A DNA stretch of 26,319 nt from a virus: IMG/VR virus record IMGVR_UViG_3300023119_000102, positions 1-26,319 of that record. One strand, given 5' to 3'. Made by a program: the position numbers and the translations under genes. Below, piece after piece: positions 2,420 to 22,241 of this stretch. The notes below the pieces were generated by a model. The model was not told where the DNA came from, ran no database searches, and was given only the letters and a program-made list of their open reading frames with translations. Within the stretch, counting starts at the first letter, position 1. Every line of letters starts with the position of its first letter.

Positions 2420-3142
2420 ATGGCAACTAATTTTTTCTTCAACAATTTTAACTCTTCACAGGAACAATTGTTACTAGAAAATTTAGTAATTGAGTCCATA
2501 AAGATTTATGGACACGATGTATATTATATTCCTATTACTAGAACATCTTATGATGATATCTATGGTGAAGACGATCAAGCAGCATATAATTCAGCATATT
2601 TTATGGAAATGTATATTAAATCCATAGATGGATTTTCTGGTGATGGTGAATTTATGTCAAGGTTTGGTATAGAAATACGAAACCAAGTTGTTTTTTCTAT
2701 GGCACAAAGAATATTCTCAGAAGAAGTTGGAACATTTACTAATCAGGTAAGACCCAATGAAGGGGACCTGATTTATTTTCCATTGAATGATAGATGTTTT
2801 GAAATTAAATTTGTAAACAAATATGAAATGTTTTATCAGTTAGGAGCATTACAAACTTGGGAAGTTACTTGTGAATTATTTGAATATTCAAATGAAACAT
2901 TCAATACAGGTATTCCTGAAATTGATATTATTCAATCTAAGTTCTCTATGAATGCACTTGATTTCTCTATAAAAGATGAAGTAGACGATTATCTTGCTAC
3001 AGAAGATTCGGAATATATTATTCTTGAAGGAAAAGCAGTTGATGATTTGATTCCAGCAGATGATAGTGATGAAATACAACAAGAATCAGATAACATAGTT
3101 CTTTTCTCAACAGAAGATCCTTTCAGTGAAGGAAATATTTAA
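2420..3142 (+). CDS. 14: Neck protein gp14
   Basis: A 240-residue homologue of T4 gp14 (about 256 residues), the second neck protein needed to join head and tail. It opens with TNFFFNNFNSSQEQLLLENL and continues with IESIKIYGHDVYYIPI, a pattern typical of the family. The middle has VRPNEGDLIYFPLNDRCFEI, a beta-rich motif seen in head-tail connectors, and a conserved LGALQTWEVTCELFEYSNE. The C-terminal 50 residues are acidic and low in complexity. It starts four bases after gp13, and its TAA shares the A of the gp15 start codon (TAATG), so translation is probably coupled. Confidence 0.85.
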   Translation: MATNFFFNNFNSSQEQLLLENLVIESIKIYGHDVYYIPITRTSYDDIYGEDDQAAYNSAYFMEMYIKSIDGFSGDGEFMSRFGIEIRNQVVFSMAQRIFSEEVGTFTNQVRPNEGDLIYFPLNDRCFEIKFVNKYEMFYQLGALQTWEVTCELFEYSNETFNTGIPEIDIIQSKFSMNALDFSIKDEVDDYLATEDSEYIILEGKAVDDLIPADDSDEIQQESDNIVLFSTEDPFSEGNI

Positions 3143-4509
3143 TGTTCGGTCAAACATTTTATCACAGTCTAATAAGAAAATATGTTGCACTTGTAGGAAC
3201 ACTTTTTAATGACATTTACATTGAGAGAACTGATAGCACTAACACTGTAACAAAGTTTATAAAAGTTCCTATAACATATTCACCAAAAGATAAAATGTTT
3301 GCTAGAGTAATACAAGACTCTGGTCTTGATAGAGAAACTGCAGTAATGCCTCTACCTATGATTTCATTTGAAATAGGACAAATGGCATATGATGGTTCAA
3401 GAAAATTGAATACTGTTACTAGAACAGTTGTTGAAGATCCAACAACACCTGACAAGAGAAAATATCAATATAATCCAGTCCCATATAACATAGAATTTAA
3501 AGTATATGTTTATGCTAATCACTCAGAAGATGCTTCTAAAATAGTAGAACAAATTCTTCCATACTTCACACCTGACTGGACAACAACAGTTCAACTTGTT
3601 CCAGAAGTTGAAATGATTATGGATATTCCAGTTATTCTTGATAGAATAAACTATTCTGATAATTATGATGAAGCATATACAAAAAGAAGAGCAATTATTT
3701 GGTCTCTAGATTTAACATTAAAAGGATATCTATATGGTCCTGTAAAATCTTCTGCTATTATCAAATTTGCAAATACAAACTTTTATATCCCTAAAAGAAT
3801 TGGTGATTATGATTTACAAGAAGAAGTACTTACAGTTATTTCGGGTAAGAATGTAAATAGCACAACAGATTTTATCACAATAAAAAATCAACCATTTGTC
3901 AATGGCGATTATCTTGTTTATGCAAATGCAGATGGTAATTCTCAAATTACTGGTCTAACCAGTGGTTCAAAATATTATGTTGTTCAAGCAAACTCTACTG
4001 GTATTAAACTATCCACTGAAAGATATGGTGGAACAGTTGATATAACATATGCATCCTCTAATACAACAAGCACATTAAGAAGAAATAGTGCAAGTAATAC
4101 TGCAGTTGCTGAAAGAGTTACAGTTCAACCTGGACTGACTTCTAATAATAAACCAACTGTTTTTGGTAATAATCAATTATTTGTTACAGCAACAGCAAAT
4201 GCATCAATTGAAAATGGCGTTGTTTCATATGTTACGATAGATGAAGATGGATATGGATACATTGATAATCCAACTGTTACTTTTTCCGCATCACCATCTG
4301 GTAATACTGCAACTGCAACAGCAAATGTAAGTGAGTATAGAGTTGTGAAACTTAATATTACAAGTGGTGGTTCTGGATATACTTCAGCACCAACAGTTAC
4401 AATATCTGCTCCAGACGGATTAACAGTTCCATTCTCGCAAATTGAAGAAGATGATAACTATGGATATGTTATCAGTATATATAATTGGGAAGAACTGAAT
4501 GGAGAATAG
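3142..4509 (+). CDS. 15: Tail sheath stabiliser/completion protein gp15 with inserted modules
   Basis: Residues 1-217 match T4 gp15 (272 residues), the hexameric terminator that caps the sheath and tube and meets the neck. Examples are FGQTFYHSLIRKYVALVGTL at the start and the SLDLTLKGYLYGP strand near residue 190. The protein is 455 residues because two extra modules follow. Residues 233-314 form a beta-type module (VNGDYLVYANADGN, ITGLTSG, YYVVQAN) that recurs in gp18. Residues about 345-424 hold two copies of a short repeat (YGYIDNPTVTFSA and GSGYTSAPTVTISA). Between and after them lie segments that read like normal gp15 C-terminal sequence (ERVTVQPGLTSNNKPT and EEDDNYGYVISIYNW). The gene overlaps gp16 by 11 bases. 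Confidence 0.85.
   Translation: MFGQTFYHSLIRKYVALVGTLFNDIYIERTDSTNTVTKFIKVPITYSPKDKMFARVIQDSGLDRETAVMPLPMISFEIGQMAYDGSRKLNTVTRTVVEDPTTPDKRKYQYNPVPYNIEFKVYVYANHSEDASKIVEQILPYFTPDWTTTVQLVPEVEMIMDIPVILDRINYSDNYDEAYTKRRAIIWSLDLTLKGYLYGPVKSSAIIKFANTNFYIPKRIGDYDLQEEVLTVISGKNVNSTTDFITIKNQPFVNGDYLVYANADGNSQITGLTSGSKYYVVQANSTGIKLSTERYGGTVDITYASSNTTSTLRRNSASNTAVAERVTVQPGLTSNNKPTVFGNNQLFVTATANASIENGVVSYVTIDEDGYGYIDNPTVTFSASPSGNTATATANVSEYRVVKLNITSGGSGYTSAPTVTISAPDGLTVPFSQIEEDDNYGYVISIYNWEELNGE
3838..4083 (+). repeat. Inserted beta module, copy in gp15
   Basis: Residues 233-314 of gp15 align without gaps to residues 316-397 of gp18 (7567-7812). By hand count 50 of 82 residues are identical. Runs such as ITGLTSG, VVQAN, KLST and VYANA are shared, and DNA identity is also clear, for example AAATTACTGGTCTAAC in both. 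The module is probably an exposed decoration domain. Confidence 0.8.
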
Positions 4510-4930
4510 AAAATTGAATGATGAAGAAGATCCTATTGGTGAAGCATTAGATATACTTCCTCCAGTAAAACAAGAAAAAGAAGAGAAAAAAGAATTAGTA
4601 ATAGAAGAAGACGATACTTCTGTTTCTGATTTTGTTTCTGCTCGCCAAAACATCCACGATATGATTGATGCTTCAAAAGAAGCAATTGATTTATTAGCAG
4701 GATTTGCTGAAAGATCTCAACAACCAAGAGCATTTGAAGTTTTAGGAAAACTTATAGAAACAAATGTTAAAGCAAATAAGGATTTGTTGGAACTACAAGA
4801 AAAAATAAGACAAATCAAAGAATTAGATATTACTCCTGAAGGTAAAGCAAAAACAATTAATAATAATTTATTTGTTGGAAGCACAGCAGAACTTCAAAAA
4901 GTACTAAAGAATATGAAGAATGAAGAATAG
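4499..4930 (+). CDS. 16: Terminase small subunit gp16
   Basis: A 143-residue homologue of T4 gp16 (164 residues), the regulator that recognises phage DNA and stimulates the gp17 packaging ATPase. Residues 1-45 are a charged, disordered-looking region. Residues 46-75 (VSARQNIHDMIDASKEAIDLLAGFAER) and 80-110 (the FEVLGKLIETNVKANKDLLELQEKIRQI region) form two long helices, as in the ring-forming helical core of this family. The C-terminal tail contains NNLFVGSTAELQKVLKN, close to the usual end of marine gp16 proteins. It overlaps gp15 by 11 bases and gp17 by 11 bases, so translation is likely coupled to both neighbours. Confidence 0.85.
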   Translation: MENRKLNDEEDPIGEALDILPPVKQEKEEKKELVIEEDDTSVSDFVSARQNIHDMIDASKEAIDLLAGFAERSQQPRAFEVLGKLIETNVKANKDLLELQEKIRQIKELDITPEGKAKTINNNLFVGSTAELQKVLKNMKNEE

Positions 4931-6575
4931 TGATATAGATGCTAAAGGTTATAAAGGTAATATTAATCTAAAGAGAATCAATCAAGAAATTGATTGGACT
5001 CCTGAACTCGTTCAAGAATATGTAAAATGTTCTGAAGACCCAGTATATTTTATTGAAACATATATGAAAATTATAAATGTTAATGAGGGTCTTGTAAACT
5101 TTAATTTATATGACTACCAAAAACAAATGATTCGTGGATTTCAGGATAATAGATTTAATATTATTACAACTGCTAGACAAGCAGGAAAATCTACAACCAC
5201 CTGCGGTTTTATTCTTTGGTACATTATATTTCATTCAGAAAAAACAGTAGCACTTCTAGCAAACAAGGGTGATACTGCTAGAGAAATTCTTGGTAAAATT
5301 CAACTTGCTTATCAACATTTACCCAAATGGTTACAACAGGGTGTAACTGAATGGAATAAAGGTTCGTTTGAATTAGAAAATAATTCAAGAGTTATTGCTG
5401 CTGCTACATCTTCAAGTGCTATTCGTGGTTATGCTATTAACTTATTGTTTATTGATGAGGCAGCATTTATTGAAGGATGGGATGAATTCTTTACTTCTGT
5501 TTACCCTACTATTTCTTCGGGTGATGAAACTAAAATTGTTCTTGTTTCAACACCAAATGGTTTAAATCATTTCTACAGTATATGGGTAAATGCTGTTCAA
5601 AAAAGAAATCAATATAACTTTATGAAAATTATGTGGCAAGATGTTCCCAACCGTGATGGTAAATGGAAAGATGAAACTCTTGCTGCAATGAACTTTGATA
5701 TTGAAAAGTTTCAGCAAGAATATGAGTGTGAATTTCTTGGTTCATCTGGAACACTGATTGCTGGTTGGAAGTTAAAAGAACTTGTTCATATGAATCCTGT
5801 GTCTGACAAAGAGGGTCTTACACAATATAAACAAGCAGAAAAAGAACATGCATATATAACAGTATGTGATGTTTCTCGTGGTAAGGGTCTAGACTATTCT
5901 GCATTTCAAGTTTTAGATGTTACATCTATGCCTTATCAACAAGTTTGTGTTTATAGAAATAATGCTATTTCACCTGTTGATTATGCTAGTATGATACATG
6001 GAGTAGCAAGAGGTTATAATGATTCTGCTGTTCTTGTAGAAATTAATGATATTGGCGAACAAGTTTCACATTCACTTCATTATGATTTAGGATATGATAA
6101 TATTCTTTTTACTGAAAATGCTGGTAGAAGTGGTAAAAGAATTACAGGTGGATTTGGTAAAGGAGAAATAGATAAAGGTATCAGAACAACTAAAATTGTA
6201 AAATCTGTTGGTTGTTCTATATTAAAATTATTAATTGAACAAAATCAATTAATAATAAATGATTTTAATACTATTAATGAACTTTCTACCTTTTCTAAAA
6301 AAGGTAAATCATATGAGGCTGAACATAATAAACACGATGACTTGGTAATGTGTTTGGTTTTATTTGCTTGGTTATCAGATCAAGATTATTTTAAAGAATA
6401 CACTGATATTAATACTCTTATGTCTTTAAGAGAAAAAACTGAAGAAGATATTGAGCAAGATTTAGCTCCTTTTGGATTTATTTTTGATGGGCGTGAAGAT
6501 TTTTATGATGAATCTTTTGAAGAGATAAATCCAGATGCGTGGATGTTTAATGACTCGTTGAAAATCAACTTTTAA
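4920..6575 (+). CDS. 17: Terminase large subunit gp17 (packaging ATPase/nuclease)
   Basis: A 551-residue homologue of T4 gp17 (610 residues), the motor that pumps DNA into the prohead through the portal and cuts the concatemer. The ATPase part shows the adenine-binding YDYQKQM (residues 64-70), Walker A ARQAGKST (K90), Walker B LLFIDE (E180) and the coupling motif STPNG (residues 210-214). The RNase H-fold nuclease part has D317 (VCDVSRG), E374 (VLVEIND) and the HDD at 472-474, matching the catalytic triad pattern of T4 gp17 (D401, E458, D542). All key residues are present, so it should be active. It is followed by a 46-base gap with the gp18 late promoter. Confidence 0.95.
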   Translation: MKNSDIDAKGYKGNINLKRINQEIDWTPELVQEYVKCSEDPVYFIETYMKIINVNEGLVNFNLYDYQKQMIRGFQDNRFNIITTARQAGKSTTTCGFILWYIIFHSEKTVALLANKGDTAREILGKIQLAYQHLPKWLQQGVTEWNKGSFELENNSRVIAAATSSSAIRGYAINLLFIDEAAFIEGWDEFFTSVYPTISSGDETKIVLVSTPNGLNHFYSIWVNAVQKRNQYNFMKIMWQDVPNRDGKWKDETLAAMNFDIEKFQQEYECEFLGSSGTLIAGWKLKELVHMNPVSDKEGLTQYKQAEKEHAYITVCDVSRGKGLDYSAFQVLDVTSMPYQQVCVYRNNAISPVDYASMIHGVARGYNDSAVLVEINDIGEQVSHSLHYDLGYDNILFTENAGRSGKRITGGFGKGEIDKGIRTTKIVKSVGCSILKLLIEQNQLIINDFNTINELSTFSKKGKSYEAEHNKHDDLVMCLVLFAWLSDQDYFKEYTDINTLMSLREKTEEDIEQDLAPFGFIFDGREDFYDESFEEINPDAWMFNDSLKINF

Positions 6576-6581
6576 TAAATA
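6574..6581 (+). promoter_or_regulatory. T4-type late promoter AATAAATA (gp18)
   Basis: AATAAATA starts at the last two bases of the gp17 stop codon, 40 nt before the gp18 ATG, in one of the few intergenic gaps. It differs from TATAAATA at the first base only. AAAGGAG at 6609-6615 is the gp18 ribosome site downstream. Confidence 0.55.
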
Positions 6582-6621
6582 CTAAAAAATATCGTAATCA
6601 ATCCACGTAAAGGAGAATAAA

Positions 6622-9180
6622 ATGCCATTTCAGTTAAGCCCAGGTGTTAATATTACTGAAATTGATTTAACAACTGTAGTGCCTGCAGTAGCCACTACAG
6701 ATGGTGCCATTGCTGGTGTCTTTCGTTGGGGTCCAATTAAAGACAGAGTTCTTATTGATTCAGAAAATCTTTTAGTTTCAAGATTTGGTAAGCCAACAAA
6801 TTTTAATGCTGAAACATTTTTTACTGCTGCTAATTTCTTAGCATATGGTAATAGACTATATGTTTCTCGTGCAGCAGATGTAGATGGCGCTACTCCACAA
6901 GTAGATAGTGTTGTAGCAAATACTTCTGCTTCTGGTGGTGCTGTTTTCACTGCATCAAATACAACTGCTATTTCTGTTGGTATGTATGTAACACAGACAA
7001 GTAATTCTACAGTTATTAACGCTACTGGTAAATCAGTAAATGTTACTGCAGTAAACTCTTCTTCATTTACTCTTAGTAAAAATGCAGCAGCAAACGATAC
7101 AATATCAGTTTATTTTGCAAACCCAGAAACAACTTATACAGCTGTTGCTATTCAAACAGATTCTTCAAACGGTATTGTCTCAAACCTTGTAAATCAGATT
7201 GTTCTAAACGAACAAAGATATGATGATAAAGATGGACAGTTTGATGCTGATGTTCTTTATGTAGCAAAGTATCCCGGTAAATTAGGTAATGATTTAAGAG
7301 TTTCTGTCTGCGATGCTTTTGATGGGTTTTCTTCAAACATTGCACTTTCTAACTCAACAGTAAATACTGCAGTTGAATTTAGAGTTGGTTCAAATACAGC
7401 AACAATCAAGTTTGAAGGAACTTCAAATGCTTCTGCAGCTGCAGTAGCTGGACAACTTTCTGTTGGAGATCAAATCCTTACTGGTAACTCATCTATTTCA
7501 AAGCAGTATCTACAGTTAAAATCTAAGACTGTAAATTCTACATATGTTAATACTTCTGCAATTTCTATTTCGGGTGCAGTTGTAAATAGTGCTCTTGACT
7601 TTATCACCATTTCTTCTAACCCATATACAAATGGTGATATTGTTGTTTATGCAAATGCTGCTGGTAATGCAGAAATTACTGGTCTAACTAGTGGTGATAC
7701 ATATCACGTTGTTCAAGCAAACACAGCGGGTGTTAAACTTTCAACTACACCTTTTGGTTCACCAGTAGATATTTCATATGTTGCTTCTAATACTTCTGGA
7801 ACTTTAACTGGTAATACAAATACAGTTGTTCTTGGATTTGAAGACCCATATAGACTAAGAAAAGATTTTGTTGATACCAAAGTTCAAAGATATTGGGAAT
7901 TCTTTAATGTTATTGATACAGCACCAGGACAATCTGACTTTGTAAGATTTAATGGTAATACTTCTGCAAATGATGAAATGCACGTTGTAGTTGTTGATGA
8001 AGATGGTGGTTTCACAGGAACTCCTGGTTCTATTCTAGAAACATTTAAGAATCTTTCTAGAGCATCTGATGCAGTTAATAATGATGGTGCTACAAATTAT
8101 TATAAAGAAGTTATTAATGATGTTTCAAATTATATTTGGTGGGCAAATGACAGAACAACTGCAGTTTCAAACACTGCTATTAGTCTTGAATCTGCTTCAA
8201 ATACAACTCCTGGTTCTTATAACTTTACATTAGGTGAAGATGGTAAGAGTGAAGCACTTACTCCTGTTTCAACCTTAATGGAAGCATATGATGAATTTAG
8301 ATCTTCAGAAGATGTTGATATTTCACTTATTATGCAGGGCAAACCAAGAGGAGGTACAACAGTATCTGGTGGCGAAACAATTGAAAACTTCCAACTAGCA
8401 AATTATATTATTGATAATATTTGCGAAATTAGAAAAGACTGTGTTGTTCTTATTTCTCCAGATAAAAGTAAAGTTCTAAATAACTATGGAAATGAAGCAG
8501 AGTCTCTTGTAAACTTTAGAAATGTTCTTCGTAGCTCATCATATGGTATTATGGATTCTGGTTATAAGTATATGTATGACCGTTACAACGACCTTTATCG
8601 TTATATTCCATTAAACGGTGATGTTGCTGGTCTTTGTGTAAGAACAGATCAAACAAGAGATCCTTGGTTCTCTCCAGCTGGATTTAATCGTGGCCAGATT
8701 AAAAATATTATTAAACTACCATTCAATCCAAGAAAAGCAGAAAGAGATTTAATATATCCAAATGGTGTTAATCCAGTAGTTGCTTTCCCTGGTCAAAGCA
8801 CTATTCTATTTGGTGATAGAACTCTACTAAATAAACCAAGTGCTTTTGATAGAATCAACGTTCGTAGATTGTTTATTGTACTTGAAAAAGCAATTTCTGT
8901 TGTTGCTAAATTCTCACTCTTCGAATTTAACGATGCATTTACTAGATCACAATTTAAGAATCTAATTGTACCATACCTCAGAACTGTTCAAGGCCGTCGT
9001 GGTATTACAGATTTCTTAGTTGTATGTGATGAAACAAACAACACTCCTGATGTAATTGATAGAAACGAATTTGTTGGAGACATTTATATCAAACCAGCTC
9101 GTTCTATCAACTTCATTCAGTTGAATTTCGTAGCAGTTGGAACTGGTGTACAATTCTCTGAAGTCGTCGGACGCTTCTAA
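6622..9180 (+). CDS. 18: Tail sheath protein gp18 with large insertion
   Basis: An 852-residue homologue of T4 gp18 (659 residues), the contractile sheath subunit. The N terminus (FQLSPGVNITEIDLTTVVPAV) and the C-terminal third are clearly sheath. The latter includes FNPRKAERDLIYPNGVNPVV, GDRTLLNKPSAFDRINVRRLF and the last strand FVAVGTGVQFSEVVGRF. The extra length lies between about residues 95 and 400. This region is rich in S, T, N and A and contains a short beta-rich segment (about residues 102-166) and an 82-residue module (316-397) shared with gp15. In T4 the equivalent middle domains face outward on the tail, so the insertion probably decorates the tail surface. The gene has its own late promoter at 6574 and a strong AAAGGAG site. 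Confidence 0.93.
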   Translation: MPFQLSPGVNITEIDLTTVVPAVATTDGAIAGVFRWGPIKDRVLIDSENLLVSRFGKPTNFNAETFFTAANFLAYGNRLYVSRAADVDGATPQVDSVVANTSASGGAVFTASNTTAISVGMYVTQTSNSTVINATGKSVNVTAVNSSSFTLSKNAAANDTISVYFANPETTYTAVAIQTDSSNGIVSNLVNQIVLNEQRYDDKDGQFDADVLYVAKYPGKLGNDLRVSVCDAFDGFSSNIALSNSTVNTAVEFRVGSNTATIKFEGTSNASAAAVAGQLSVGDQILTGNSSISKQYLQLKSKTVNSTYVNTSAISISGAVVNSALDFITISSNPYTNGDIVVYANAAGNAEITGLTSGDTYHVVQANTAGVKLSTTPFGSPVDISYVASNTSGTLTGNTNTVVLGFEDPYRLRKDFVDTKVQRYWEFFNVIDTAPGQSDFVRFNGNTSANDEMHVVVVDEDGGFTGTPGSILETFKNLSRASDAVNNDGATNYYKEVINDVSNYIWWANDRTTAVSNTAISLESASNTTPGSYNFTLGEDGKSEALTPVSTLMEAYDEFRSSEDVDISLIMQGKPRGGTTVSGGETIENFQLANYIIDNICEIRKDCVVLISPDKSKVLNNYGNEAESLVNFRNVLRSSSYGIMDSGYKYMYDRYNDLYRYIPLNGDVAGLCVRTDQTRDPWFSPAGFNRGQIKNIIKLPFNPRKAERDLIYPNGVNPVVAFPGQSTILFGDRTLLNKPSAFDRINVRRLFIVLEKAISVVAKFSLFEFNDAFTRSQFKNLIVPYLRTVQGRRGITDFLVVCDETNNTPDVIDRNEFVGDIYIKPARSINFIQLNFVAVGTGVQFSEVVGRF
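7567..7812 (+). repeat. Inserted beta module, copy in gp18
   Basis: This is the second copy of the module found in gp15 at 3838-4083, here residues 316-397 of the sheath. Alignment is gap-free and about 61% identical at protein level by hand count. It is flanked on the N side by further S/T/N-rich sequence and on the C side by return to the sheath fold at FEDPYRLRKDF. Confidence 0.8.
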
Positions 9181-9217: not shown

Positions 9218-9832
9218 ATGCCTTTTAACATTAGTTCCTTTAAAGAAAACGGTCTGGTATATGGTGGTGCCAGACCATCCCTATTCTCTGTGACACTTAA
9301 TGTGCCACAGGGAATTGGTATTGATAATGTTTCGGTAGATAAGTTTAGATTTATGTGTAGAACAGCTGAATTGCCTCCATCAGCAGTAGCAGCAATTGAT
9401 GTGCCATATTTTGGAAGAAGAATTAAAATTGGTGGTGATAGAGCTTTTGGCGATTGGACTGTTAATATTATGAATGATGAAGATTTTGCTGTAAAAGCAT
9501 TATTTGAAAAATGGTCAAATGCTATTAACAGAATGCAATCTAATGTTCGTGATCCAAATGTTTCTACTGAGGAATATAAACAAGACTTAATGTGTACTCA
9601 ATATTCTAAAGATGGTATTAAAATTAGAGAATATAGAATTATTGGTGCGTTCCCAACAACAGTAGCTGGTATCGGTTTAGATTGGGATGCTCAAAATACT
9701 GTTGAAACATTTGGTGTTACATTTGCATATGATTATTGGGTTCCAGAAATTGAAACTTCTGATAAGAAAGCTGGTGGTGTAAATGCTTACAGACCAGAAT
9801 CAGAACTAGATGGTCCTTTAGGTCCAGAATAA
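9218..9832 (+). CDS. 19: Tail tube protein gp19
   Basis: A 204-residue homologue of T4 gp19 (163 residues), the hexameric ring protein that builds the inner tail tube under the sheath. Typical features are PSLFSVTLNVP near residue 25, FMCRTAELPPSAVAAIDVPYFGRRI around residues 45-70, and DWTVNIMNDEDFAVKALFEKW. The late part FPTTVAGIGLDWDAQNTVETFGVTFAYDYW is the hallmark end strand of tube proteins, followed by about 25 extra residues. It follows the sheath gene as in T4 and has its own perfect late promoter, which fits the high copy number needed. Confidence 0.92.
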   Translation: MPFNISSFKENGLVYGGARPSLFSVTLNVPQGIGIDNVSVDKFRFMCRTAELPPSAVAAIDVPYFGRRIKIGGDRAFGDWTVNIMNDEDFAVKALFEKWSNAINRMQSNVRDPNVSTEEYKQDLMCTQYSKDGIKIREYRIIGAFPTTVAGIGLDWDAQNTVETFGVTFAYDYWVPEIETSDKKAGGVNAYRPESELDGPLGPE

Positions 9833-15864: not shown

Positions 15865-16386
15865 ATGTCAGCAGTAGATAATACACCAGAAAATAAAAAC
15901 TTTTTATCCCCTCTTAATTTTAGATTTCAAATTAAGAAGGCACCACATGTTAATTTTTTCGTTCAGTCTGTGAACATACCTGCTATTTCTCTTCCACATG
16001 TAGACACACCCAATCCATTTGTAAGAATTCCACAAACTGGTGATCATATATCATTTGAACCTTTACAAATAAGTTTTAAGGTTGATGAAGACTTACAAAA
16101 TTACCTAGAGATACACAATTGGATATTGGGTTTAGGTTTTCCAGAATCATACGACCAATATAAAAAATTATCAGATGTTCCTAGAATAACAGGCGAAGGT
16201 CTGTTGTCTGACATTACTGTATTAGTTTTATCCAGTACAAAAATAGCAAACTATGAAGTAACTTTTGTAGATGCACATCCGGTATCTTTAACAGAATTAA
16301 AATTTAATTCAACAGATACTTCTGTGAACTATATAAGTAGTAGTGCAACTTTCAAATATACCCATTATAAAATTCAAAATATATAA
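15865..16386 (+). CDS. 3: Tail completion protein, gp3-like (tube-terminator type)
   Basis: A 173-residue protein. Its opening (NKNFLSPLNFRFQIKKAPHVNFFVQSVNIPAISLP) and the later GDHISFEPLQISFKVDEDLQNYLEIHNWI read like a member of the tail-tube fold group that includes gp19, gp54 and tail terminator proteins. Its place after gp23 and before uvsY is where marine T4-like phages carry the gene annotated as gp3 (T4 gp3 is 176 residues), the protein that ends tube polymerisation. I infer gp3 from size, position and the tube-like pattern. A baseplate tube protein is the main alternative. It has its own late promoter. Confidence 0.6.
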   Translation: MSAVDNTPENKNFLSPLNFRFQIKKAPHVNFFVQSVNIPAISLPHVDTPNPFVRIPQTGDHISFEPLQISFKVDEDLQNYLEIHNWILGLGFPESYDQYKKLSDVPRITGEGLLSDITVLVLSSTKIANYEVTFVDAHPVSLTELKFNSTDTSVNYISSSATFKYTHYKIQNI

Positions 16387-20041: not shown

Positions 20042-21747
20042 TTATTTTTGAAAATATAAAATGGAAGAATTTTCTTTCCACTGGTAATGTTTATACTAAA
20101 ATTAATCTATCAAAAAATAAAAATACACTTATAATAGGTGAGAATGGTGCAGGAAAATCTACCATTCTCGATGCACTTACTTTTGCTCTTTATAACAAAC
20201 CATTCAGAAAAATTAATAAAGGACAGCTTGTTAATTCTATTAACAATAAAGGTGCTGTTGTTGAACTTGAATTTTCTCTATACAAAAACAAATATAGGAT
20301 TGTAAGAGGAATTAAACCAAATATTTTTGAGGTCTATAAGAATAATGATTTAATAAATCAAAATGCAGATTCTAAAGACTACCAAGAATATTTAGAAAAG
20401 CATATTCTAAAAATAGGTTATAAATCTTTTTGTCAAGTTGTTGTTCTTGGGTCAGCAACATTTCTTCCGTTTATGCAATTGCCTGCTGCACAGAGAAGAG
20501 AGATTGTTGAAACACTTTTAGATTTACAAATTTTCACAACTATGAACAGCGTTCTAAAAGATAAAGTTCAGAAAAATAAAGAGGATTTTATTAGAGTAGA
20601 AGAACAAAAAAGAAATATAGAAGAAAAGATTATTATAATCAAAAAGTATATTGAAAAAAGAGAACAGGAAAGCAAAGAAAGTGTAGAAAAAAAAGAAAAA
20701 GAAATTGAAAAGATTGATGAAATTATCATTTCTAAAAAAGAGGAACTGAAAAAAGTTGAGAAGGAATATCACGAATTATCTCAAGATGTTTCAGATGATA
20801 AAAAGATTACAAATGAGAATACAAATCTATTACTGCTAAGAGAAAAAATAAATTCTAAAATAGATATGGTCTCTGAAGAAATAACATTCTTGGAAACAAA
20901 TGATGATTGTCCAACCTGTAAACAGAGAATAGAAGAAAGTTTTAAATTAGAATCTATTGGTGATAAAAATGATAAACTTAAAGAATATAAAGACGGTTTA
21001 TTTCTTCTAAAAGAAAAAATATTCAACAATGAAAAGGAAATGCAAAGTTTAAATGAAAGTAAAGAAAAGTTATCAAAAGTAAAAGACCAATTTAGAGATA
21101 TTAGTTTTGATTTATCTTCAACAGAGAGAATGAAAAAATCTATTGAAGCAGAAATAAAAAGCATAAAGAAAAAAGAATCTACTATTAGTAATGAAGAAAT
21201 AAAAGATAGTGAAGAAGAATTGATAAAAATTAATGATATATATAATGAGTTGATAAAAAATAAAGATTTGTATTCTGCATCATCTGTGTTATTGAAAGAT
21301 AATGGAATCAAGTCTAGGATTATTAAAAAATATATTCCTATAATCAACAAACTTATTAATAAGTATCTTTCTGATTTAAATTTCTTTGTTAAGTTTGAAT
21401 TAGATGAAGAATTTAATGAGGTTATTAAAAGTAGACATAGAGACGAGTTTTCATATTCATCTTTCTCAGAAGGCGAAAGGATGAAAATAAATCTATCAAT
21501 ACTTTTTACTTGGAGAATGATTTCTCAATTAAGAAATTCTATCAATACAAATCTATTGATTATGGATGAAGTTTTTGATAGTTCTCTTGATAGTGAAGCA
21601 ACTGAAGATTTTATGAAACTATTGAATGAATTTGGAGACAAAACAAATGTGTTTATCATTTCACACAAAACAGAACAGTTAAATGAAAAATTTGACAACA
21701 TTATTCGATTTAAAAAACAGAAAAACTTTAGTAAGATAGTACAATGA
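20038..21747 (+). CDS. 46: Recombination nuclease ATPase gp46 (Rad50/SbcC family)
   Basis: A 569-residue homologue of T4 gp46 (560 residues), the SMC-like ATPase partner of gp47. Walker A is GENGAGKS (residues 34-41). A Q-loop lies near FCQVVVLG. Two long coiled-coil arms (about 170-285 and 300-420) surround a zinc hook C-P-T-C (C291, C294). The signature motif is SEGER (477-481), and Walker B is LLIMDE (D510, E511), followed by a D-loop S-S-L-D and a switch His in IISHKTEQL. Every key residue of the family is present. It overlaps gp47 and the following deformylase gene by four bases each. Confidence 0.95.
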   Translation: MIIFENIKWKNFLSTGNVYTKINLSKNKNTLIIGENGAGKSTILDALTFALYNKPFRKINKGQLVNSINNKGAVVELEFSLYKNKYRIVRGIKPNIFEVYKNNDLINQNADSKDYQEYLEKHILKIGYKSFCQVVVLGSATFLPFMQLPAAQRREIVETLLDLQIFTTMNSVLKDKVQKNKEDFIRVEEQKRNIEEKIIIIKKYIEKREQESKESVEKKEKEIEKIDEIIISKKEELKKVEKEYHELSQDVSDDKKITNENTNLLLLREKINSKIDMVSEEITFLETNDDCPTCKQRIEESFKLESIGDKNDKLKEYKDGLFLLKEKIFNNEKEMQSLNESKEKLSKVKDQFRDISFDLSSTERMKKSIEAEIKSIKKKESTISNEEIKDSEEELIKINDIYNELIKNKDLYSASSVLLKDNGIKSRIIKKYIPIINKLINKYLSDLNFFVKFELDEEFNEVIKSRHRDEFSYSSFSEGERMKINLSILFTWRMISQLRNSINTNLLIMDEVFDSSLDSEATEDFMKLLNEFGDKTNVFIISHKTEQLNEKFDNIIRFKKQKNFSKIVQ

Positions 21748-22241
21748 TATTAGATATTGTAGACAAAACAAATCCTATACTTAAAGAAAAGATGGATAGA
21801 TTTGATTTTTCTGAACCACAAACAGACCCAATAGAATTAGCACATAATTTAACTCAGACTATGATTCATAATAATGGATTAAGTCTTTCAGCAAACCATG
21901 TTGGTTTGCCTTACAGAGCATTTGTTATTATGTCTAATCCAGTTATCTGTTGTTTTAATCCAAGAATTGTAGATGAAACAAATGAAACAGTTTATCTAGA
22001 AGAAACAAGCTTGACTTATCCTGGATTATCAGTTAAGATAAAGAGACCGTCTAATATTAAAGTTAGGTATGAACAACCTAATGGTGATATAGCAACAAAC
22101 AAATATATTGGTATGACTTCAAGATTGATACAACAAGAGTTAGACCATTTGAATGGAATTCTATTTTATACAAAAGCATCTGCTTATCATTTAGAACAGG
22201 CGAAGAAAAAAAGGAAAAAACTTTATGGAAATAAAAATTGA
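21744..22241 (+). CDS. Peptide deformylase homologue with degenerate active site
   Basis: A 165-residue protein with the deformylase fold pattern but altered catalytic motifs. True deformylases remove the N-formyl group from nascent proteins using a metal held by one Cys and two His. Motif 1 (GxGLAAxQ) reads GLSLSANHVG here (Q replaced by H52). Motif 2 (EGCLS) reads ETSLTYPG, with Ser (S89, codon AGC at 22008) in place of the metal-binding Cys. Motif 3 (HExxH) reads QELDH, with Gln (Q131, codon CAA at 22134) for the first His, while E132 and H135 remain. Canonical metal binding is therefore unlikely. The C terminus is Lys-rich. It may be a ribosome- or peptide-binding relic, or have changed chemistry. 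Marine T4-like phages often carry active deformylases in this region. Confidence 0.8.
   Translation: MILDIVDKTNPILKEKMDRFDFSEPQTDPIELAHNLTQTMIHNNGLSLSANHVGLPYRAFVIMSNPVICCFNPRIVDETNETVYLEETSLTYPGLSVKIKRPSNIKVRYEQPNGDIATNKYIGMTSRLIQQELDHLNGILFYTKASAYHLEQAKKKRKKLYGNKN

Follow-up and report, generated by a model that had tools for sequence, protein, structure and literature searches.

Small immunoglobulin-like (Ig-like) beta domains are distributed patchily among many virion proteins of tailed phages, and weak binding to cell-surface carbohydrates has been proposed for them (Fraser et al. 2006, cited in PMC9230969). Evseev et al. 2022 (PMC9230969) described extra domains of sheath proteins that are inserted in the core, lie away from the tube, are commoner in large phages and are mostly Ig-like sandwiches; a contribution to adhesion or stability was proposed (PMC9230969). 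In phage T4, domain I of the sheath protein gp18 is a beta-barrel inserted in domain II that protrudes from the tail and touches the retracted fibers and the baseplate, and domains I and II together form the solvent-exposed part of the sheath (PMC3004832). Residues 203-245 of T4 gp15, the sheath terminator, contact the C-terminal arm of the neck protein gp14 (PMC12270204). Here, we analyze an 82-residue module that occurs in both gp15 and gp18 of a T4-like phage represented by IMG/VR record IMGVR_UViG_3300023119_000102, a sequence of 26,319 bases (the window) that is itself a genome fragment.

We regard it as probable that the shared stretch is a surface accessory domain that was acquired in gp18, then copied to gp15 and kept as tail surface material. 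The insertion, homology, nesting, purifying selection, predicted fold and recurrence in other tail proteins described below were computed in this work. The features concerned are the following.

3142 to 4509, plus strand: gp15, sheath terminator or tail sheath stabilizer, 455 amino acids, identified by PF16724, PHROG 227 and T4 gp15 structures
3805 to 4083, plus strand: gp15 insert 1, residues ~222-314, containing the shared module (residues 233-314, positions 3838-4083), recognized by its absence in relatives, its gp18 match and its fold
4165 to 4428, plus strand: gp15 insert 2, residues ~342-429, a different virion repeat of GSGY/PTVT type, absent in relatives
6622 to 9180, plus strand: gp18, tail sheath protein, 852 amino acids, identified by PHROG 23, Pfam and its T4 gp18 match
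6913 to 7125, plus strand: gp18 site A domain, residues ~98-168, at the T4 domain I position, variable in presence
7534 to 7827, plus strand: gp18 site B insert, residues ~305-402, containing the shared module (residues 316-397, positions 7567-7812), inside sheath domain II, with an empty site in relatives

Both carriers are recognizable as T4-like tail proteins. The gp15 product matches Pfam T4-gp15_tss (PF16724; 3.6e-66 over residues 6-219), PHROG 227 (5.6e-72) and the T4 gp15 structures 4huh/3j2m (5e-26), and its membership among T4-like gp15 proteins follows from the PF16724 domain together with the syntenic neck, terminase and sheath genes. For gp18, the tail sheath family PHROG 23 (1.2e-114), T4 gp18 structure 9mkb (9.8e-97), a Foldseek best match to T4 gp18 (8e-27) and the Pfam sheath domains PF17482, PF04984 and PF22671, all above their cut-offs, place the protein among T4-like sheath proteins. 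The two genes lie ~3.7 kb apart.

An earlier note, made from the sequence alone, had reported the same 82-residue module in both proteins at ~61% identity, with clear DNA similarity and with the remainder of the two proteins unrelated, and these observations hold. Residues 233-314 of gp15 and 316-397 of gp18 align without gaps with 50 of 82 positions identical on recounting; BLASTP extends this to 51/84 (E 7e-27), BLASTN aligns 164 of 228 nucleotides (72%, E 2e-31), and the same codon is used at 37 of the 50 identical residues. Outside the module, BLAST of the two proteins gave no similarity above chance, the next best match having an E value of ~1. The module pair has a Smith-Waterman score of 261; 1000 shuffles that preserve composition reached no more than 74, and none of the other open reading frames (ORFs) of the window exceeded 40, so the S/T/N-rich composition that the note had offered as a possible refutation is not the explanation, and a chance match is ruled out.

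The module is an insertion in gp15. Scans of IMG/VR with each of the two modules and with gp18 yielded 96 loci containing 63 gp15 ORFs, among which the module is confined to the window lineage (the window plus 7 further contigs); the remaining gp15 ORFs, mostly of 270-290 residues and some of them partial, are without it, and the site is empty in ~50 of these relatives. The junction is clean: insert 1 starts directly after a conserved NFYIP motif (residue ~221), the site is empty in 13 aligned relatives, and T4 gp15 aligns solely to residues 1-219 of the window protein.

It is likewise an insertion in gp18. Site B (window residues ~305-402) is empty in relatives such as L065, L066 and L067, T4 gp18 aligns to residues 5-232 and 535-850 and not over the module, and no significant module match was found in the gp18 proteins of T4 or of the cultured relatives DLP_6, Cr30, Mosig and Melnitz. 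In a phylogeny of the conserved C-terminal gp18 core, built from the 80 hits nearest to window gp18 and hence giving fractions that do not represent T4-like phages at large, the module is restricted to a single clade of 34 proteins, 22 with it and 12 without, requiring at least 5 changes. L046 carries a tandem pair, and the gp18 of L080 has a copy at a different position. The empty sites in gp15 relatives and in many gp18 relatives rule out a native part of both proteins in all T4-like phages, a second refutation that the note had envisaged, and its statement that T4 gp15 and gp18 lack the stretch agrees with the T4 alignments. The note had also suggested an exchangeable domain, which the predicted independent folding and the recurrence of the fold in other tail proteins, described below, bear out. 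In gp18, inheritance inside a single clade, with occasional loss, accounts for most of the distribution, rather than free exchange.

Placement of site B on T4 gp18 is uncertain between domains I and II, since MAFFT and phmmer differ; the phmmer YPG-LG anchor was used and assigns it to domain II. The other added domain of gp18, at site A, also varies in presence among relatives. A site-B profile gave weak matches to the site A domains of L033 (0.0012) and L038 (0.0018), and profile-profile comparison gave an E value of 0.007 with a probability of 5.5%; stronger values (L038 2e-13, L033 4.5e-9) were set aside because the profile already contained those copies. Site A may hold a remote homologue of the module, but the profiles do no more than suggest this and do not make it a clear paralogue of site B.

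The history of the copies points to transfer from gp18 to gp15. In a tree of modules, the gp15 copies form one clade (support 100/99) that is sister to the gp18 modules of the window lineage and L009 (93/75), and their identity is 59-61% to those gp18 modules and at most 54% to other gp18 modules. This sister relationship makes copying from gp18 to gp15 in an ancestor the likeliest reading of direction on sequence grounds, with moderate tree support, and sustains the earlier proposal that the module was copied between genes. In six phages (L013, L021, L022, L025, L028 and L030) gp18 contains the module and gp15 is plain, the pattern expected if gp18 acquired it first. DNA identity is 90% between the gp15 copies of the window and L020; between gp15 and gp18 modules it is 69.9% within the lineage and 65.0-69.1% across lineages (L009, the source of a gp18, and L020, the source of a gp15, have a common sample prefix, which need not make them the same virus). 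The similarity of these values indicates that copying is older than the split between the window and L020, with no later conversion visible, and recent gene conversion was discarded on the same figures. The ratio of nonsynonymous to synonymous substitution (dN/dS) is ~0.13 for the module in both genes and 0.04-0.06 for the cores; both modules are constrained by purifying selection, less so than the cores.

Structure prediction is consistent with a domain that folds on its own. The AlphaFold model of the gp15 module (24 alignment rows; pLDDT 86, pTM 0.76) consists of beta strands plus one short helix, and the gp18 model (mean pLDDT 76, and 76-89 across most of the module) has strands that match them at a fixed offset of 307 residues. 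The module is thus predicted to be a compact small beta-barrel, independently folding, as the note had anticipated in proposing an independent beta domain. No Pfam or NCBIfam family was matched, and a PDB sequence search gave no family. A PDB structure search returned nothing significant, its best rows being E1 enzymes and F1-ATPase barrels. None of 23 modules matched the Ig, Big or FN3 families, an Ig-type beta-sandwich was not found, and an Ig-like identity was rejected on the basis of these family searches and the barrel-type PDB fold matches. As a separate observation, the genome of L080 encodes a 745-residue fibre-like protein (L099:1-2238) with a weak E1_FCCH (PF16190) match of 1e-4, below the cut-off.

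A structure search of predicted viral proteins (BFVD) gave 17 matches with E <= 0.001; a baseplate wedge protein came first (TM 0.82, rmsd 1.0), wedge initiators were included and tail fibers ranked lower. Sequence searches of near-complete relatives located the module in gp18 and also in one or two further large proteins, namely a PHROG 17744-related protein (baseplate wedge, three copies) and a PHROG 358-related protein. The occurrence is patchy across gp18, gp15, baseplate wedge-like, PHROG 358 and fiber proteins, and recurrence of the fold in baseplate wedge proteins and fibers of other phages indicates a wider virion accessory module. A scan of bacterial genomes with one module, which covers close relatives, detected none.

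The second gp15 insert, overlooked by the note, is a repeat of GSGYTSAPTVT type unrelated to the shared module. It occupies a nearby loop (residues ~342-429), is followed by a conserved C-terminal tail and is missing from relatives. The repeat matches 119 phage records, in tail fibers, head-closure proteins and other structural proteins, recurs in virion proteins of marine phages, and is present as well in L056 gp18 (4e-5), Synechococcus phage Sf-CH1b gp14 (2e-14) and Pelagibacter phage Mosig gp15 (1.6e-8). Sf-CH1b gp14 (L132:4377-5498; 373 residues) has its GSGY-type insert in the C-terminal part, where T4 gp14 touches gp15. Mosig gp15 (L130:960-2558; 532 residues) has a long C-terminal extension in which GSGY-type repeats flank a domain of ~180 residues that looks lectin-like by eye and has no Pfam match. 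The neck and terminator region thus tolerates inserts in other phages as well.

Exposure of the module differs in plausibility between the two proteins. Both sites had been expected to face outward on the tail. For gp18 this is plausible by analogy, because T4 domains I and II are solvent-exposed, and its module would lie on the outside of the tail. For gp15, the insertion point aligns to T4 residue ~221-226, within the stretch of 203-245 that contacts gp14, so this copy may not face outward, and a role in the head-tail joint becomes a real rival. Under that rival, the module would make contacts between neighboring sheath subunits and among the last sheath ring, gp15 and gp14, and the same domain in both proteins would help to lock sheath to terminator and tail to neck. 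The position of the gp15 insert at the site that binds the gp14 C-terminal arm (PMC12270204) is in its favor, as are the location of gp18 domain II in the sheath core, where it moves between rings upon contraction (PMC3004832), and the other type of module held next door by the C-terminal part of Sf-CH1b gp14. However, most relatives combine the gp18 module with a normal gp15, which shows that it need not be paired with a copy in gp15; baseplate and fiber proteins away from the joint also contain the module; and modules evolve faster than the core. We consider structural reinforcement unlikely, while giving it the first place among the alternatives.

Somewhat behind it, and also unlikely, is the possibility that the module is tolerated baggage, which would spread by recombination between low-complexity-like beta repeats, be accepted in permissive loops and be folded merely to avoid harm to assembly. 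Repeated loss or gain in gp18, the variety of carrier proteins and insertion sites, the presence of two different modules in one gp15 and a site A sheath domain that likewise comes and goes would all fit, but long retention over a diverse clade under purifying selection and conserved motif positions within the module argue against it. More doubtful is a history of two independent captures from an outside donor, such as a baseplate or fiber gene, without copying between gp18 and gp15. Homologous modules do reside in other virion genes, and because the window is a fragment that does not include them, it gives no check on any internal donor besides gp18. Yet wedge-like and PHROG 358 modules score 48-75 bits on the module profile versus 107-117 bits for the gp15 and gp18 copies, the gp15 copies are nearest to the gp18 copies found in their own lineage, and the two still resemble each other at the DNA level. 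A homotypic lock, in which an uncatalogued beta-barrel family would move within one virion between sheath subunit and terminator by gene-internal duplication and the gp15 and gp18 copies would hold the last ring to the neck by binding one another or a common partner, is improbable.

A surface accessory domain copied from gp18 to gp15 is accordingly the reading that we prefer, and the following points weigh against it. The nesting of the gp15 copies in the gp18 modules has the moderate support given above, which leaves room for independent capture from a close unsampled source; the gp15 insertion maps to the T4 gp14-contact region and could be a joint element instead of free decoration; and the module yielded no binding partner or carbohydrate-binding signature. 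The note had suggested that the module may bind host glycans or shield the tail; among carbohydrate-binding families none exceeded its cut-off, and CBM_5_12 (17.0 bits against 26.2, over 16 residues) was rejected as an identity for the module.

For a surface accessory domain, the following course of events is proposed. An autonomous beta-barrel of ~80-90 residues would have been acquired in a loop of sheath domain II of gp18 by the ancestor of one T4-like clade, and later, in the ancestor of the window lineage, the gp18 copy would have been duplicated into the C-terminal part of neighboring gp15. Purifying selection would have kept both copies as extra surface material of the contractile tail, with one module copy per subunit in each sheath ring and in the terminator hexamer. 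By analogy with the proposal for Ig-like accessory domains, we infer that the module may serve in low-affinity adhesion to host-surface polymers or to other parts of the virion.

The order of genes in the window is neck adaptor, gp14, gp15, terminase, gp18, tail tube, portal, head protease, scaffold and major head protein, followed by replication genes. The two features upstream of gp15 are as follows.

1675 to 2415: neck adaptor
2420 to 3142: neck protein gp14

A second tail-tube-like protein (PHROG 45) is encoded at 15865-16386, between the major head protein and UvsY. It shares 20% identity with the tube protein encoded at 9218-9832, and its position makes it a probable gp3, or tube terminator. 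Farther along, at 21744-22241, lies a phage peptide deformylase gene (PHROG 2890).

The module observation is real and is a case of phage domain shuffling. Many aquatic T4-like phages carry the module as a sheath add-on, and the gp15 copy is present in one lineage. As an example of domain copying from a polymeric sheath protein to the terminator it is clean and datable, and public contigs show both the empty sites and the intermediate state, with the module in gp18 alone. It also brings to light an unnamed domain family in sheath, terminator, baseplate and fiber proteins of aquatic phages that falls outside Pfam coverage, which should aid annotation, and it gives a defined test of the purpose of accessory tail domains.

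Phages are known to swap accessory domains among tail parts; the module of gp18 and gp15 fits that habit. Like the Ig-like accessory domains, it is a small beta domain inserted patchily in several virion proteins; unlike them, it is predicted to be a small beta-barrel rather than an Ig sandwich and matches no Ig family. An inserted domain common to sheath and terminator was not found in a text search of the sheath survey (PMC9230969). Baseplate wedge and wedge-initiator (gp7-like) proteins and fibers of marine cyanophages and uncultured phages contain the same fold and sequence relatives of the module, with only ~20-40% identity and in carriers that are large and repeat-rich. The E1 FCCH beta-barrel (PF16190) is similar in a short motif, and E1 enzymes head the PDB fold matches (UBA6 probability 0.99, TM 0.54, in a part that may be FCCH); this likeness is a lead that does not reach significance (UBA6 E 0.067), and PF16190 had no match in the window proteins. 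With respect to T4 gp18 itself, the site A domain of the window protein lies at the position of domain I, and the shared module would represent a second insertion, weakly similar to site A and located farther along domain II.

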